Shown here piece by piece: positions 37,916 through 43,165 of a DNA stretch of 64,000 nucleotides. The stretch comes from Saltatorellus ferox (GTDB taxonomy: Bacteria > Planctomycetota > UBA1135 > GCA-002686595): positions 1,178,001 through 1,242,000 of the forward strand of contig CP036434.1 of NCBI GenBank assembly GCA_007751475.1. Reading direction: 5' to 3'. Numbering within the stretch: position 1 is the first letter of the stretch; the number at the start of each line of letters is the position of its first letter. The notes beneath the pieces are model-generated. The model searched no databases, was not told the origin of the DNA, and worked only from the letters and a program-made list of their open reading frames with translations. Both the position numbers and the translations under genes were made by a program.

Positions 37916-38692
37916 TCAGAGTTCGTTCTTCTTCGCTGCGTCGGCGATCTCTTTCGCGTTCGCCTGGCGCTTCAGCTCGAGCTGGGTGGCCTTCTCGATC
38001 TCTTGGCTCAGTTCGAGGCGCTCGGACTCACACTTGTTGATCTCCTTGACGAACTTCGCGAGCTTGCGCGAGTCCGGACCGTCCTTCTCCAGGATGGCGT
38101 CATGGGAGGCCTTGAGATCGAGGTAGCGCTCGTCGATCACGTCCATCTTGTCGATGATCTTGGCGATCTTCTTCACGGACGAATCGGGCTTGCCCTTGTA
38201 CTCCTTGGCGATGACACCTTTCATCGACTCCCAGAGCTTGACACGCGACGTGTCCGACTCGAGAGGGTCGTGGTTGGATCCATCGGCCGAACAGACGAAG
38301 AGGTGCTCCGGTTGCTCGAGAGTGAAGGCGTTGTGGAACGGATGGTCTTCTTCCATCACGTCCACAGGGAGCTTGACGCAGTGGAACCAGCGCGCCAGCA
38401 AGAAGGTCTTTTCGTTGTCGACGCCGCCCTTGAGCAGAGCATCGTCGGTGCCGTTGCAGACCTTGCACTCGCGCAGCACGAGAAGCGGGCGCGGGTCGTT
38501 CCCCGCAATGGCTTTCATGGCTTCCTCTCGGGAAAGGGCGCGCTGCACGCTTCGTGCAGTGGACCCCTCCGTGACCTCTTTGGTCTCCGGTTGGTACACC
38601 GGATAGTCCCAGGTCAGCTTGAGGATGGCTTTGGCAGTGGCGCCGCGAACGACGGGGGCAGCGTTAGAAGTGGGTTGTGGCGAACTCGACAC
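37916..38692 (-). CDS. hypothetical protein with CxxC motif
   Basis: 258 aa from GTG 38692. It has a Ser/Pro/Ala-rich start, a central part with RECKVCNG (CxxC) and ARWFHCVKLPVD resembling a thioredoxin-like fold, and a long Lys/Glu-rich helical C-terminus (about 175-258) likely to form a coiled coil. The N-terminal linker character suggests an exported protein that has lost contact with its signal peptide. An in-frame signal-peptide ORF ends just upstream at 38708 and is separated by two TGA codons. No ribosome-binding site is evident before the GTG. Confidence 0.6.
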   Translation of the reverse strand: MSSSPQPTSNAAPVVRGATAKAILKLTWDYPVYQPETKEVTEGSTARSVQRALSREEAMKAIAGNDPRPLLVLRECKVCNGTDDALLKGGVDNEKTFLLARWFHCVKLPVDVMEEDHPFHNAFTLEQPEHLFVCSADGSNHDPLESDTSRVKLWESMKGVIAKEYKGKPDSSVKKIAKIIDKMDVIDERYLDLKASHDAILEKDGPDSRKLAKFVKEINKCESERLELSQEIEKATQLELKRQANAKEIADAAKKNEL

Positions 38693-38954: not shown

Positions 38955-39647
38955 CTACCTCGCGGCTCGCCGCAGGGCCTCCTGGCCTTCTTCGCTCAGG
39001 CCGAGACGGCCGAGGTCATCTCGGATCTGCTCGGTGCGTCCGTATCCACCTGCGAACGCATTCGCTCGGGTCACCGCCACGGAGCCGAGGAAGGCTTCCT
39101 CGGAAGGAAATTGCTTCTTGAATTCGGCCAGCGCCCGCGGCACATGGCGGAGGCGGTACTTCTGGTGGTAGTCCTCGGCGAGCGTGAATCCGCTGAAGTC
39201 CTCGATCCCGGTCTCGATCGCGCCTCCCGACTTTCGAGCCACGCGCGCTGCTTCCGCTTCGGCAGCCTCTCTCTGCTCCTTCGAGCGCGGGAACACCGCC
39301 GAGCGATACTGGGTGCTCCATGCCTCACGGCAGGGGTTGTGGCTGCGAAAGAACACGGCGACCAGCTCTTCGTAGCGCGTGACCGTCGGGTAGAAGTCGA
39401 TGTCGATCGCTTCCGCGTGATCGCCGATCGAGTGGTAGGTGGGATCGGGCGTGGTTCCGCCCGCGTAGCCGACGCGCGTTCGCAGCACGCCTTCGAGACC
39501 CCCGAACTGGGAGTCAGGGCCCCAGAATCAGCCGAGCGCGAAGGTGGCCGTTTCGAACCGGCCGGTTTGCAGGATCGCGGCGGCCGCTTCATCGAGGCTG
39601 ATCGGTGGGGTGGGCTTGGCGCCGCTCACGGATTCGTTGGACGTCAT
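38955..39647 (-). CDS. msrA: peptide-methionine (S)-S-oxide reductase MsrA, predicted selenoprotein (in-frame UGA)
   Basis: 230 aa when the UGA at 39528-39530 is read as selenocysteine, codon 40. MsrA reduces methionine-S-sulfoxide. Its invariant active site is GCFWG; here the frame reads ATFALG-UGA-FWGPDSQFGG, then TRVGYAGGTTPDPTYHSIGDHAEA, which is textbook MsrA on both sides. No frameshift is needed and no in-frame Cys substitutes. The C-terminal resolving cysteines of E. coli-type MsrA are absent (end EALRRAAR); one Cys at about 106 (HNPCREAW) could resolve. A SECIS-like hairpin starts 12 nt after the UGA. The start at ATG 39647 is chosen. The open frame continues upstream to 39779 and could supply an export signal (RRQRAHFLRAAALSLGCAPP). 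Confidence 0.88.
39497..39530 (-). promoter_or_regulatory. candidate bacterial SECIS element of msrA
   Basis: After the UGA (39530-39528) and a 12-nt spacer, the mRNA can form a 7-bp stem: GACUCCC (39515-39509) pairs with GGGGGUC (39503-39497), with one G-U pair, around the loop AGUUC. The loop carries the GU expected by SelB and lies about 20 nt from the UGA, inside the known bacterial SECIS window. Confidence 0.6.
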
Positions 39648-39796
39648 GGAAGGTTCGGTGGGTGGAGCGCAACCCAAGGAGAGGGCGGCCGCCCTCAGGA
39701 AGTGGGCGCGCTGGCGACGCAGCTGGATGAATGACTCAGGGTAGACCACGGGCCGCCCGCCCCACACCCCTCCTTCCATCCGTGAGGCCAGAATCC

Positions 39797-42700
39797 TCAG
39801 TCATCCCGGAGCGCCATCGCTCGGCGGAGCCCTTCCGCATGGCGCGGCACCCTGGCCGTCACGCACGTACCCCCAGACGGGTTCGACGTGACCCAGAAGT
39901 CTCCACCGGCGAGCCGCGCTCGCTCCTGCATGCTCTTCATGCCGATCCCCCCCTTGCCCGCGGGCGACTCGGCGCGACCGATGCCCTTGCCGTTGTCGCG
40001 TACGGAGAGTTCCAGGGAGTCGCCGTTCACCTCCAGAGTGACGTGAATGGACGTCGCGCCCGAGTGGCGCGATGCGTTGCGGATCGCCTCCTGGGCGATT
40101 CTGAAGAGCGCGAGGGCCGTTTCCTTCGGTGGTTCCTCCACGCCCGAATCGATCGCCAGTTCGACCGGCGCTTTGTCCGTTCGATTCCGGCGCGAGCACT
40201 CCGAGCGAAGCGCGGTCACGAGACCCAGGTCGTCCACGATCGTCGGGTGTAGCTGTCGCGACAGCGTGTGCAGATGAGTGGCGACGTTCTCGATCTCGCT
40301 CTGGAACGAACGCACGGTTTCCGTCATGCCGGATTCGTCGGTCGGACCGTTCGAGGGGCGCTTGAGGTCGAGAAGGTGGGCTTCGATGGCGAGCGCCGCG
40401 AGGCGCTGGGACAGGTCATCGTGCAGCTCTCGCGCGATCCGACTGCGCTCCGATTCCTCGGCGCGCACGAGGTTCTCGCGCAGGTCGGCGAGCGTCCTCG
40501 CATCCTTGTCCCGGCGGGAAAGATCGCTGATCATCGCGATGATCGACGTGACCTCTCCCGACTCGGAGCGGGTCGGGGCGAAGTGCCACCGACAGCGTTT
40601 GACCTGGAAGTCACCGACGCGCGTCATGGCCACGAGGCTGAAGTCCTCGCACTCGACGAACGCCCGTTGGATGGCGTCCTTGCCGAGTTCCTCGTCGTCG
40701 AAGAGCTCCCATGGATGTCCCTCGACGACCTCGTCGTGTCCCCAGGCGAACAGCTCATCCGCGCGTTCGTTTCTATCGGCCAGCGATCCGGAAGGAGTCC
40801 AGGACAGGATCGCTGAAGGCGCCGTATGGAAGAGGCGGCGGAAGCGTCGCTCGCTGGCGCCGAGCCGCGCCTCCATCGCCTTGCGCCGCGAGACCTCCTG
40901 GGTCAGAGCGAAGTTCCGCCGCCCGAGCGAGCGGTTGCGCAGGAAGAAGAGGCGAAGCACCGCCAGCAGCGCTGCTCCAGCGAACGACCATCGAACCCAG
41001 GCCCGTTCGAACCAATAGGGGGCGATCACCAGCGTCTTGGAGCGCATCGGCGTCGACCAGGTGCTCGTGGGCGTGCGGGCTCGCACCTCCAGCGTGTACC
41101 GACCGTTCGGGAGGTTCGGGAAGCGCGCCGCTCGAGCCGAGCCTGCATCGATCCACCGTTCGTCGAACTCGACCATCCTGTACTGGAAGGAGGCGTGGCT
41201 CGACGTCGGAAAGATGGGGGCGGTGAATTCGTAGAGGACGTTCACCGAATCGCGATAGTGACCGGCTTCGTTCATCGGAGCGCCGTTCACGTAAGGTCCT
41301 CGGATCAACACGCGCGGTGAAGCGCTCGGCGGCGGAAGGGAAGATCTGTCGAAGATCGCGACGCCCTCGAGCGTGGGAAGCGCGATGGCACCATTCGCCA
41401 GGACCGCGCCGAGCGCTCCGTTAGCTTCCGGCACCCGGAACGTCTGAGCTTCTATGGTCATGGTCTTGCCCGCGGCGTGGGCGTCGAGGCTCGCGGTCGA
41501 GGCGCGGATCACTCCGGCGTTGGAATGCACCCACAGGTAGCCGCTGTCATCGACGGGCGCGATCCAGGCGAGGAAAGGATCGGGTAGACCGGCGGCCTTC
41601 GACCAGTGTTCGAGGGGGCCCGCCGCGCCGAGGCGAAAGAGTCCCTGGCCGTAGGTGCTGATCCAGATCTCCCCGCCGTGACCAGGTCGCAGGTGTCGAA
41701 CGCTCGCCTGACCCAGTTTCGCGATCGTCATCCACTCTCCCGACTTCGTATCGAGCCTCAGAAGCTCGCTCCGACTGGCAGCGATGGGCGCGCCGCGCGC
41801 ATAACACAGCGCCACGATTCCCGACGGGGGCAAAGGAAAGCTCGCCAGTTCGCCGGAGGATCCGCGACCCGCTTCGACCTGCTCGAGTCGACCCTGAAAG
41901 ACGAGCCAAACATCGCCGTCAGGGGAGGCGATGATCGGTCCTGCAGGGCCTCGCCAGCGTGGATCCGGCAGCAGGATGCCGTCCTCGAAGCGCGCGAGAC
42001 CTCCGCGGGTGGAGAGCCAGGTGACCCCCGAGGTCGAAGCGGAGCTGTTCGAGTGATAGTCGCTCGGGTCGATCACTTCGATGGGCGTTCGCTTGCCCTT
42101 TTCGTCAAGCAGGAAAGCAACCTGTCGATCCCCCCCCAGGATGAGCGCGTCTCCTCCGGGCAGCGGATGAACATGGGCCGCGGCCCATCTCGGAAAGTCC
42201 TGGTGGAGGTCCACCAGGACGGTGCTGCTGGTTTCGACGTATTGCAGAGCATCGAGTTCGGTGCCGATCCATAGGTCACGAACCGATCCGGATCCCTGCA
42301 GCAAGCAGCGTACGCCGCGCGGCACGTCGAGCTGCGCGATGCCTTCGGTTCCGATTCGGAGCCTTTGCTCCGGGGAGTCACCTCGCCACATGGCGAAGAC
42401 TCCCGCGCTCGTCGCCAGAAGGCGCGTCGCGCCCTTGTGGGGGACCTCGTCCTGCAGGCGAACCTGGCCGAGGGACAGGGTCTCCGCTGGTGGGCCACTG
42501 AGCGATACGACGTCTCCCGACGCGGTCTGCGACCAGACGTAACCCTCGAAGTCGGTCGTGAGCCACACGGAGCGGCGGTGATCGACACACTGGAATCCGT
42601 CGGCGTCGCGCTTGAACACCCCCTCCCGCGTGGCGATCCAAAGCGATCCTTCGCCGTCTTCCACCAGCCGGCTCAGCGGCCCCCCAGGAAGACCGCTCTC

Positions 42701-43165
42701 CTCCCCGAAGACCTCGAGTTCGTCGTCATGGAAGCGCGCGAGCTTGTGGCCCACGAGCCAGAGCGCGCCGTCCTTCGTCGCGAGGAACTGACGAACGCTG
42801 TGCAGGTCTTCGGCCTCGGAGATGCGGCGGAATCGATCGTTCTCGAGGACGCACGGAGCTGCCTGGGCGGCTCCGATCCAGACCCTGCCGCTCGGGTCCC
42901 TGTGGAGCGCGATGATCCGGTCGCCGTCGAGGCCCTCGTGATCCGCGGACAGGAGCGTTTCGAAACGGGCGCCGTCGTACCGGGCGAGGCCCGCCGTCGT
43001 GCCTACCATGAGGAACCCTTGGTCGTCGTAGCCAAGGGCGTTGATCGTGTTGCTGGGTGCCCCGTCGGCCACGGAGATCGTGGTGCGCATGAGCGCCGGG
43101 CCCTGCAGGGCCGCGTGGGCCAGGGGAGCAGATGCCAGGAGAACGAGGAGCAGCGCGATTCTCAT
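39797..43165 (-). CDS. sensor histidine kinase with periplasmic beta-propeller (Reg_prop/Y_Y_Y) and PAS domain
   Basis: 1122 aa. Signal peptide, then two-component-regulator propeller repeats across about 35-640 (for example LGYDDQGFLMVGTTAGLARYDG). A Y_Y_Y beta-sandwich covers about 665-735 (FQYRMVEFDERWIDAG, LPNGRYTLEVRAR). One membrane helix (about 745-765), a PAS domain (about 790-905), a HisKA_3 dimerisation domain with the phospho-His in IARELHDDLSQRL and a HATPase domain (NGKGIG, GGIGMKSMQERARLAGG) follow. This is a NarL-type kinase reading an extracellular signal, commonly a glycan in relatives. Unlike hybrid HTCS proteins it lacks a receiver and AraC domain, and no response regulator is adjacent. 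Confidence 0.92.
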   Translation of the reverse strand: MRIALLLVLLASAPLAHAALQGPALMRTTISVADGAPSNTINALGYDDQGFLMVGTTAGLARYDGARFETLLSADHEGLDGDRIIALHRDPSGRVWIGAAQAAPCVLENDRFRRISEAEDLHSVRQFLATKDGALWLVGHKLARFHDDELEVFGEESGLPGGPLSRLVEDGEGSLWIATREGVFKRDADGFQCVDHRRSVWLTTDFEGYVWSQTASGDVVSLSGPPAETLSLGQVRLQDEVPHKGATRLLATSAGVFAMWRGDSPEQRLRIGTEGIAQLDVPRGVRCLLQGSGSVRDLWIGTELDALQYVETSSTVLVDLHQDFPRWAAAHVHPLPGGDALILGGDRQVAFLLDEKGKRTPIEVIDPSDYHSNSSASTSGVTWLSTRGGLARFEDGILLPDPRWRGPAGPIIASPDGDVWLVFQGRLEQVEAGRGSSGELASFPLPPSGIVALCYARGAPIAASRSELLRLDTKSGEWMTIAKLGQASVRHLRPGHGGEIWISTYGQGLFRLGAAGPLEHWSKAAGLPDPFLAWIAPVDDSGYLWVHSNAGVIRASTASLDAHAAGKTMTIEAQTFRVPEANGALGAVLANGAIALPTLEGVAIFDRSSLPPPSASPRVLIRGPYVNGAPMNEAGHYRDSVNVLYEFTAPIFPTSSHASFQYRMVEFDERWIDAGSARAARFPNLPNGRYTLEVRARTPTSTWSTPMRSKTLVIAPYWFERAWVRWSFAGAALLAVLRLFFLRNRSLGRRNFALTQEVSRRKAMEARLGASERRFRRLFHTAPSAILSWTPSGSLADRNERADELFAWGHDEVVEGHPWELFDDEELGKDAIQRAFVECEDFSLVAMTRVGDFQVKRCRWHFAPTRSESGEVTSIIAMISDLSRRDKDARTLADLRENLVRAEESERSRIARELHDDLSQRLAALAIEAHLLDLKRPSNGPTDESGMTETVRSFQSEIENVATHLHTLSRQLHPTIVDDLGLVTALRSECSRRNRTDKAPVELAIDSGVEEPPKETALALFRIAQEAIRNASRHSGATSIHVTLEVNGDSLELSVRDNGKGIGRAESPAGKGGIGMKSMQERARLAGGDFWVTSNPSGGTCVTARVPRHAEGLRRAMALRDD

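Follow-up and report, generated by a model that had tools for sequence, protein, structure and literature searches.

We have identified in Saltatorellus ferox, a member of the Planctomycetota, a gene for methionine sulfoxide reductase A (MsrA) that is predicted, with a probability of about 96%, to encode an enzyme with selenocysteine (Sec) as its catalytic residue. The gene, msrA, lies on the minus strand at positions 38955-39647 of the window, by which we mean the whole 64,000-nucleotide stretch of DNA that was analysed. Five features assessed by sequence underlie this reading, namely the position of an in-frame UGA, the Sec-decoding genes of the genome, a hairpin that shows covariation, the subfamily of the enzyme and its active-site residues, and from these we infer that Sec is actually inserted and that the enzyme is active. 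The finding suggests that this Planctomycetota genome has all that is needed to decode Sec and uses selenium in a protein-repair enzyme; routine gene calling would split the msrA in two.

The msrA gene and its in-frame UGA

The translation of the minus strand at 38955-39647 includes FETATFALG, a UGA and then FWGPDSQFGGLEGVLRTRVGYAGG, the sole in-frame TGA being that at 39528-39530, and the frame runs through 230 codons without a further stop until the TAG at 38955-38957. Read through the UGA, it would yield a 230-aa selenoprotein with a catalytic domain and a C-terminal helical domain, in which Sec is residue 40, counting from the ATG at 39647 (an in-frame ATG at 39779 is the other candidate start), and stands at the catalytic Cys of the GCFWG motif. 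The original prediction had located the UGA at precisely this codon of an intact MsrA frame, which is what we saw in the sequence, and had expected software to break the gene into two fragments; a mechanical ORF listing does give two pieces, 38955-39488 and 39528-39779. The read-through protein matched Pfam PMSR (PF01625) with 127 bits (cut-off 23.7) and TIGR00401 msrA with 109.3 bits (cut-off 108.1). The resolving Cys residues of the C-terminus had also been described as missing. This is correct for the C-terminus, which has none, but a single Cys is present elsewhere in the protein, Cys106 in an HNPC motif (His103-Asn104-Pro105-Cys106, codons at 39330-39341 of the minus strand, positions derived from the residue numbers).

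When the protein was compared with known structures, the best PDB matches were 7c13, 4u66 and 4lwj (E 7.2e-40 to 8.4e-40), in which query residues 31-223 were aligned with residues 7-199, and the two alignments shown had no gap. The 144-residue 4w8c came next at 1.4e-37, followed by other MsrA entries from 1.2e-26, over residues of about 30-166. 4LWJ is the Cys version of the Sec-MsrA of Clostridium oremlandii and 4W8C is the same protein without its helical domain (PMC4333827); judging by the alignments, 7c13 and 4u66 are probably C. oremlandii MsrA too. The proposed kinship with known Sec-MsrA was thus borne out, 4LWJ being matched far better than ordinary MsrA entries. The C. oremlandii enzyme consists of a catalytic domain (residues 1-144) and an essential helical domain (145-209), and its active site is formed by GCFWG, Tyr47, Glu55, Gln89, Tyr90, His137 and Tyr140 (PMC4333827). 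With an offset of 24, the equivalents Tyr71, Glu79, Gln113, Tyr114, His161 and Tyr164 are all present in the window MsrA, and in 50 aligned rows of 119 the first five are invariant and Tyr164 is nearly so. By the same offset, the putative helical domain would comprise residues 169-230 (38958-39143, minus strand). A best structure match that reaches into the helical domain, along with a shared active site, identifies the predicted product as a helical-domain Sec-MsrA of the C. oremlandii type. In such an enzyme the Sec40 selenolate would attack methionine-S-sulfoxide, free methionine and turn into a selenenic acid, and a thiol reductant from outside would then reduce this acid.

The upstream neighbour of msrA, in the same orientation, is a sensor histidine kinase gene (39797-43165) with Reg_prop, Y_Y_Y, PAS, HisKA_3 and HATPase_c domains. 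Downstream is a gene of 258 aa (37916-38692, minus strand) for which a Pfam match was not found; it contains a CxxC stretch (LLVLRECKVCNGTD) that looks thioredoxin-like by eye only. ORFs of at least 90 codons in the best 80 of 542 related stretches, many of which have short flanks, contained no match at 1e-4 to any of three neighbouring window proteins. In an all-against-all grouping of the same best 80 of 542, the five largest groups were MsrA or overlapping frames, judged on one example each, and the other groups comprised at most 5 loci. Scans for promoters and terminators returned 0 and 0.

The Sec-decoding system and the SECIS-type hairpin

The window lies in a single contig of 7,718,526 bases, with a completeness value of 88.1. 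A Sec-decoding system, which the original prediction had taken to be implied and whose absence would have refuted it, was sought in the genome, and selA, selB, selD and tRNA-Sec were each found above the curated cut-off. The tRNA-Sec scored 70.9 bits (cut-off 47) and was called by ARAGORN as tRNA-SeC with anticodon tca, SelA reached 453.5 bits (cut-off 267.9), SelB 318.7 bits, or 342.1 with a second piece (cut-off 242.25), and SelD 327 bits (cut-off 125). SelD itself has one in-frame TGA, in the motif CAGUAAK, and SelA is present in 56 of the 61 genomes of the family, our own counted. SelA would form Sec-tRNA-Sec, with selenophosphate coming from SelD, and SelB would bind the hairpin described below, whose stem starts 14 nt past the UGA, and so bring Sec to the UGA.

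In-frame TGAs also occur in redox motifs elsewhere in the genome, namely WUPSC (locus L160), WUGPC (L163), WUPPC (L165) and FRUEPU (L147). The first three lie in thioredoxin-family frames and have the TGA at the expected first active-site Cys. L147 (C1:1421100-1421291, minus strand) is a thioredoxin-like frame with two in-frame TGAs and a possible UxxU double selenoprotein; it was reached through one of four matches to NF041383 in this genome, none of which exceeded the 275-bit cut-off. Judged on motif position alone, these four loci are likely to encode selenoproteins.

The UGA of msrA is followed by a predicted bacterial SECIS-type hairpin, the evidence for which is comparative, since the energy of one stretch by itself is not significant. 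Numbering from the U of the UGA, its core (39499-39513, minus strand) is a 5-bp stem that pairs positions 18-22 with 28-32 around the loop AGUUC. The distance from UGA to loop is 19 nt and the loop reads RGUUY in most rows. According to the bacterial SECIS model, a G occurs within the first two loop positions and the loop lies 16-37 nt from the UGA (PMC13188914); the window loop, with G second and then U, fits this model, as does its spacing. Two free third codon positions are nearly fixed among the 97 distinct TGA rows of a 110-locus set, position 21 being C in 94 of them and position 30 being G in 95. For comparison we resampled synonymous codons 500 times using each gene's own codon use. 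Of the 106 distinct TGA rows, 79 form all 5 pairs, where the draws average 2.7 and never exceed 8, and 98 form at least 4, where the draws average 33.2 with a maximum of 46. Of the seven rows with a Cys codon, none has 5 pairs and two have 4. For the window gene taken alone, 1.75% of the synonymous draws have all 5 pairs.

Covariation was tested on 30 chosen TGA rows of the 112 with 500 shuffles. Pairing cells amounted to 92.0% compared with 82.4% after shuffling, cells changed on both sides numbered 13 compared with 4.5, and the covariation score was 0.298 compared with 0.124; in none of these three measures did any of the 500 shuffles come as high. Shifting the partner by 1-3 columns in the same 30 rows lowered pairing to 30.0-64.7%. 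Two other measures on these rows do not stand out, the number of pairs with a change on both sides (2, matched by 435 of 500 shuffles) and the number of further pair types (7, matched by 41 of 500). Single-hairpin folding energy was tried as evidence and rejected, the 51-nt stretch of the window folding no better than its shuffles (z -0.04). Viral contigs searched with a degenerate UGA-plus-hairpin pattern gave 0 matches.

Spread of the UGA among relatives and rival explanations

We searched 392 genomes of the phylum, our own counted, and found 39 genes in 38 of them that match at E <= 8.4e-40. Exactly one TGA occurs in 38 of the 39 and none in that of genome G171. The helical-domain MsrA is therefore widespread in the phylum (38/392 genomes), its catalytic codon being TGA in 37 of the genomes and TGC in one. 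The gene is patchy within the genus, since the congeners G140, G183 and G323 have only matches at 1.4e-21 to 8.5e-21. A contig scan yielded 542 related stretches, the best 80 of which were taken; the titles of their records include Deltaproteobacteria, Nitrospirae, Chloroflexi, Bacillota, Synergistaceae, Haloarcula and others. Among 110 loci (30 phylum loci plus the best 80 of 542, the window gene included), the catalytic codon is TGA in 103, TGT in 4 and TGC in 3. After 9 further phylum genes were added it is TGA in 112 and TGC or TGT in 7 of 119 loci, which are the best matches of two overlapping searches, window gene included, and not a random sample. The overlap of the sets is seen in three pairs, each of a phylum locus and a locus titled Planctomycetota, that are identical over 150 residues and 60 bases (L028/L057, L030/L060 and L029/L061), and a comparison over 48 bases leaves 106 distinct rows among the 112 with TGA.

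This distribution bears directly on whether the window gene could be a pseudogene, disabled at the catalytic codon by a chance nonsense mutation or a sequencing error. TGA is indeed one base away from TGC or TGT, and a second, Cys-type MsrA in the genome (L001, with the motif GCYWC) could make the window copy dispensable. A chance event was dismissed as unlikely by the original prediction, and our results agree, for the same TGA recurs in the great majority of the best-match loci, in records of many phyla, with TGC or TGT in the others; moreover the hairpin is conserved and 230 codons carry no other stop. We regard the pseudogene as highly improbable. Another general possibility is that an altered genetic code assigns UGA to Trp or Cys. 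We found nothing in favour of it, and against it stand the tRNA-Sec with anticodon tca, SelA, SelB and SelD, the fact that the in-frame TGAs examined among the matches in this genome fall in redox motifs or in that of SelD, and the presence of Cys at the site in homologues without the TGA. A changed code is thus hardly credible, and decoding of the UGA as Sec is the reading that we retain.

Sec also occurs in a shorter MsrA. Twelve weaker phylum matches with a TGA inside the match were examined, others such as that of G374 being left out. In eight of them (L133-L140) the motif GUFWG lies in an MsrA without the helical domain; the remaining four (L141-L144) have a Cys codon at the catalytic site and their TGA at another place. 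Seven of the eight come from family f3, which belongs to the same order as the window genome, and one from family f74. By Pfam, L137 and L138 are MsrB-MsrA fusions (SelR + PMSR) whose MsrA part carries the TGA. A tree built from 35 rows (22 long, 13 short) divides the two types at 100/99, the bootstrap being not fully settled, and Sec is found on both sides of the split. A 9-pair stem that joins positions 19-27 with 34-42 around the loop CGUGCU or CGUGCC is shared by L134, L135, L136 and L139, and L133 has it too, apart from one mismatch; a different fold is seen in L137, L138 and L140. This short-type stem is placed differently from the long-type hairpin. The folding energies of the eight short-type stretches (z -1.80 to 0.68) prove nothing alone.

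Reduction of the enzyme and comparison with known Sec-MsrA

In C. oremlandii, glutaredoxin reduces MsrA and thioredoxin does not (PMC4479559), and the enzyme has no Cys residue (PMC4333827, PMC4479559). A search of our genome for glutaredoxin (PF00462) gave no match, whereas the control was positive in 13 of 14 genomes, and two strong thioredoxins were found, at 106 and 103.5 bits. Among the 38 genomes with a helical-domain MsrA gene, PF00462 has a match at E 0.001 in 27, above cut-off in 26, and is without a match in 11, our own included. We suggest, with low confidence, that thioredoxin is a more likely reductant than glutaredoxin in this genome. The absent glutaredoxin match makes the recycling of such an MsrA testable in a second system. 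One in-frame TGA was observed inside the glutaredoxin-family matches of each of the genomes G305, G188, G001, G200, G179, G280 and G176.

A variant of the Sec reading, and not an alternative to it, would have Cys106 act as the resolving thiol together with thioredoxin. The read-through protein has no Cys besides Cys106, the column of this residue has Cys in 35 of the 112 TGA rows and is the most Cys-rich after the catalytic one, and the genome combines two strong thioredoxins with no PF00462 match. However, 77 of the 112 TGA rows have no Cys in this column. If Cys106 substituted for glutaredoxin, it should be more frequent in genomes that lack a glutaredoxin match, yet in a comparison of 39 genes the Cys is present in 5 of 11 genes without and in 19 of 28 with such a match (the TGC gene is counted among the 28), the reverse if anything. 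The substitution is therefore not supported and was rejected, and we consider the Cys106 variant rather unlikely. Returning to the Sec reading in its wider setting, we advance tentatively, as less likely than not, that Sec entered the MsrA of Planctomycetota more than once, in the helical-domain enzyme and separately in the short canonical MsrA of the same order with its differently spaced hairpin, MsrB-MsrA fusions included, and that the window enzyme is recycled by thioredoxin, possibly via Cys106. If this is true, its redox cycle differs from that of the C. oremlandii enzyme.

Sec-MsrA is an established bacterial enzyme, as described for C. oremlandii (PMC4333827, PMC4479559). PMC1794560 tabulates a Sec-MsrA of Syntrophobacter, PMC2398784 has an MsrA row as its entry 9, and family entries appear in PMC9312934 and PMC13188914, the latter of which gives the motif as GUFWG/H. 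The string 'Planctomycet' is absent from the main text of PMC13188914, PMC9312934 and PMC2398784 and occurs once, on SelD, in that of PMC1794560. Planctomycetes with complete Sec-insertion gene sets and selenoproteins have been described (PMC4807772), in a paper whose main text does not contain the word 'sulfoxide'. Our searches of the open-licence literature listed no paper recognisable as describing Sec-MsrA in Planctomycetota.

The kind of enzyme that the window gene is predicted to encode, the helical-domain Sec-MsrA, has been described before, and the gene shares with the bacterial Sec-MsrA family of these reviews and surveys an MsrA with predicted Sec. The second copy in the genome, L001, has the catalytic domain PF01625 in common with the window MsrA; unlike it, L001 has GCYWC with Cys and without a UGA, and it falls in the other clade of the 100/99 split. 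The window MsrA differs from the C. oremlandii enzyme represented by 4LWJ in having Cys106 where that enzyme has no Cys, in residing in a genome in which a match to glutaredoxin (PF00462), the reductant of that enzyme, was not found, and in its host among the Planctomycetota, yet it resembles it in the predicted Sec at the Cys of GCFWG, in the same active-site residues and in a match that extends into the helical domain.
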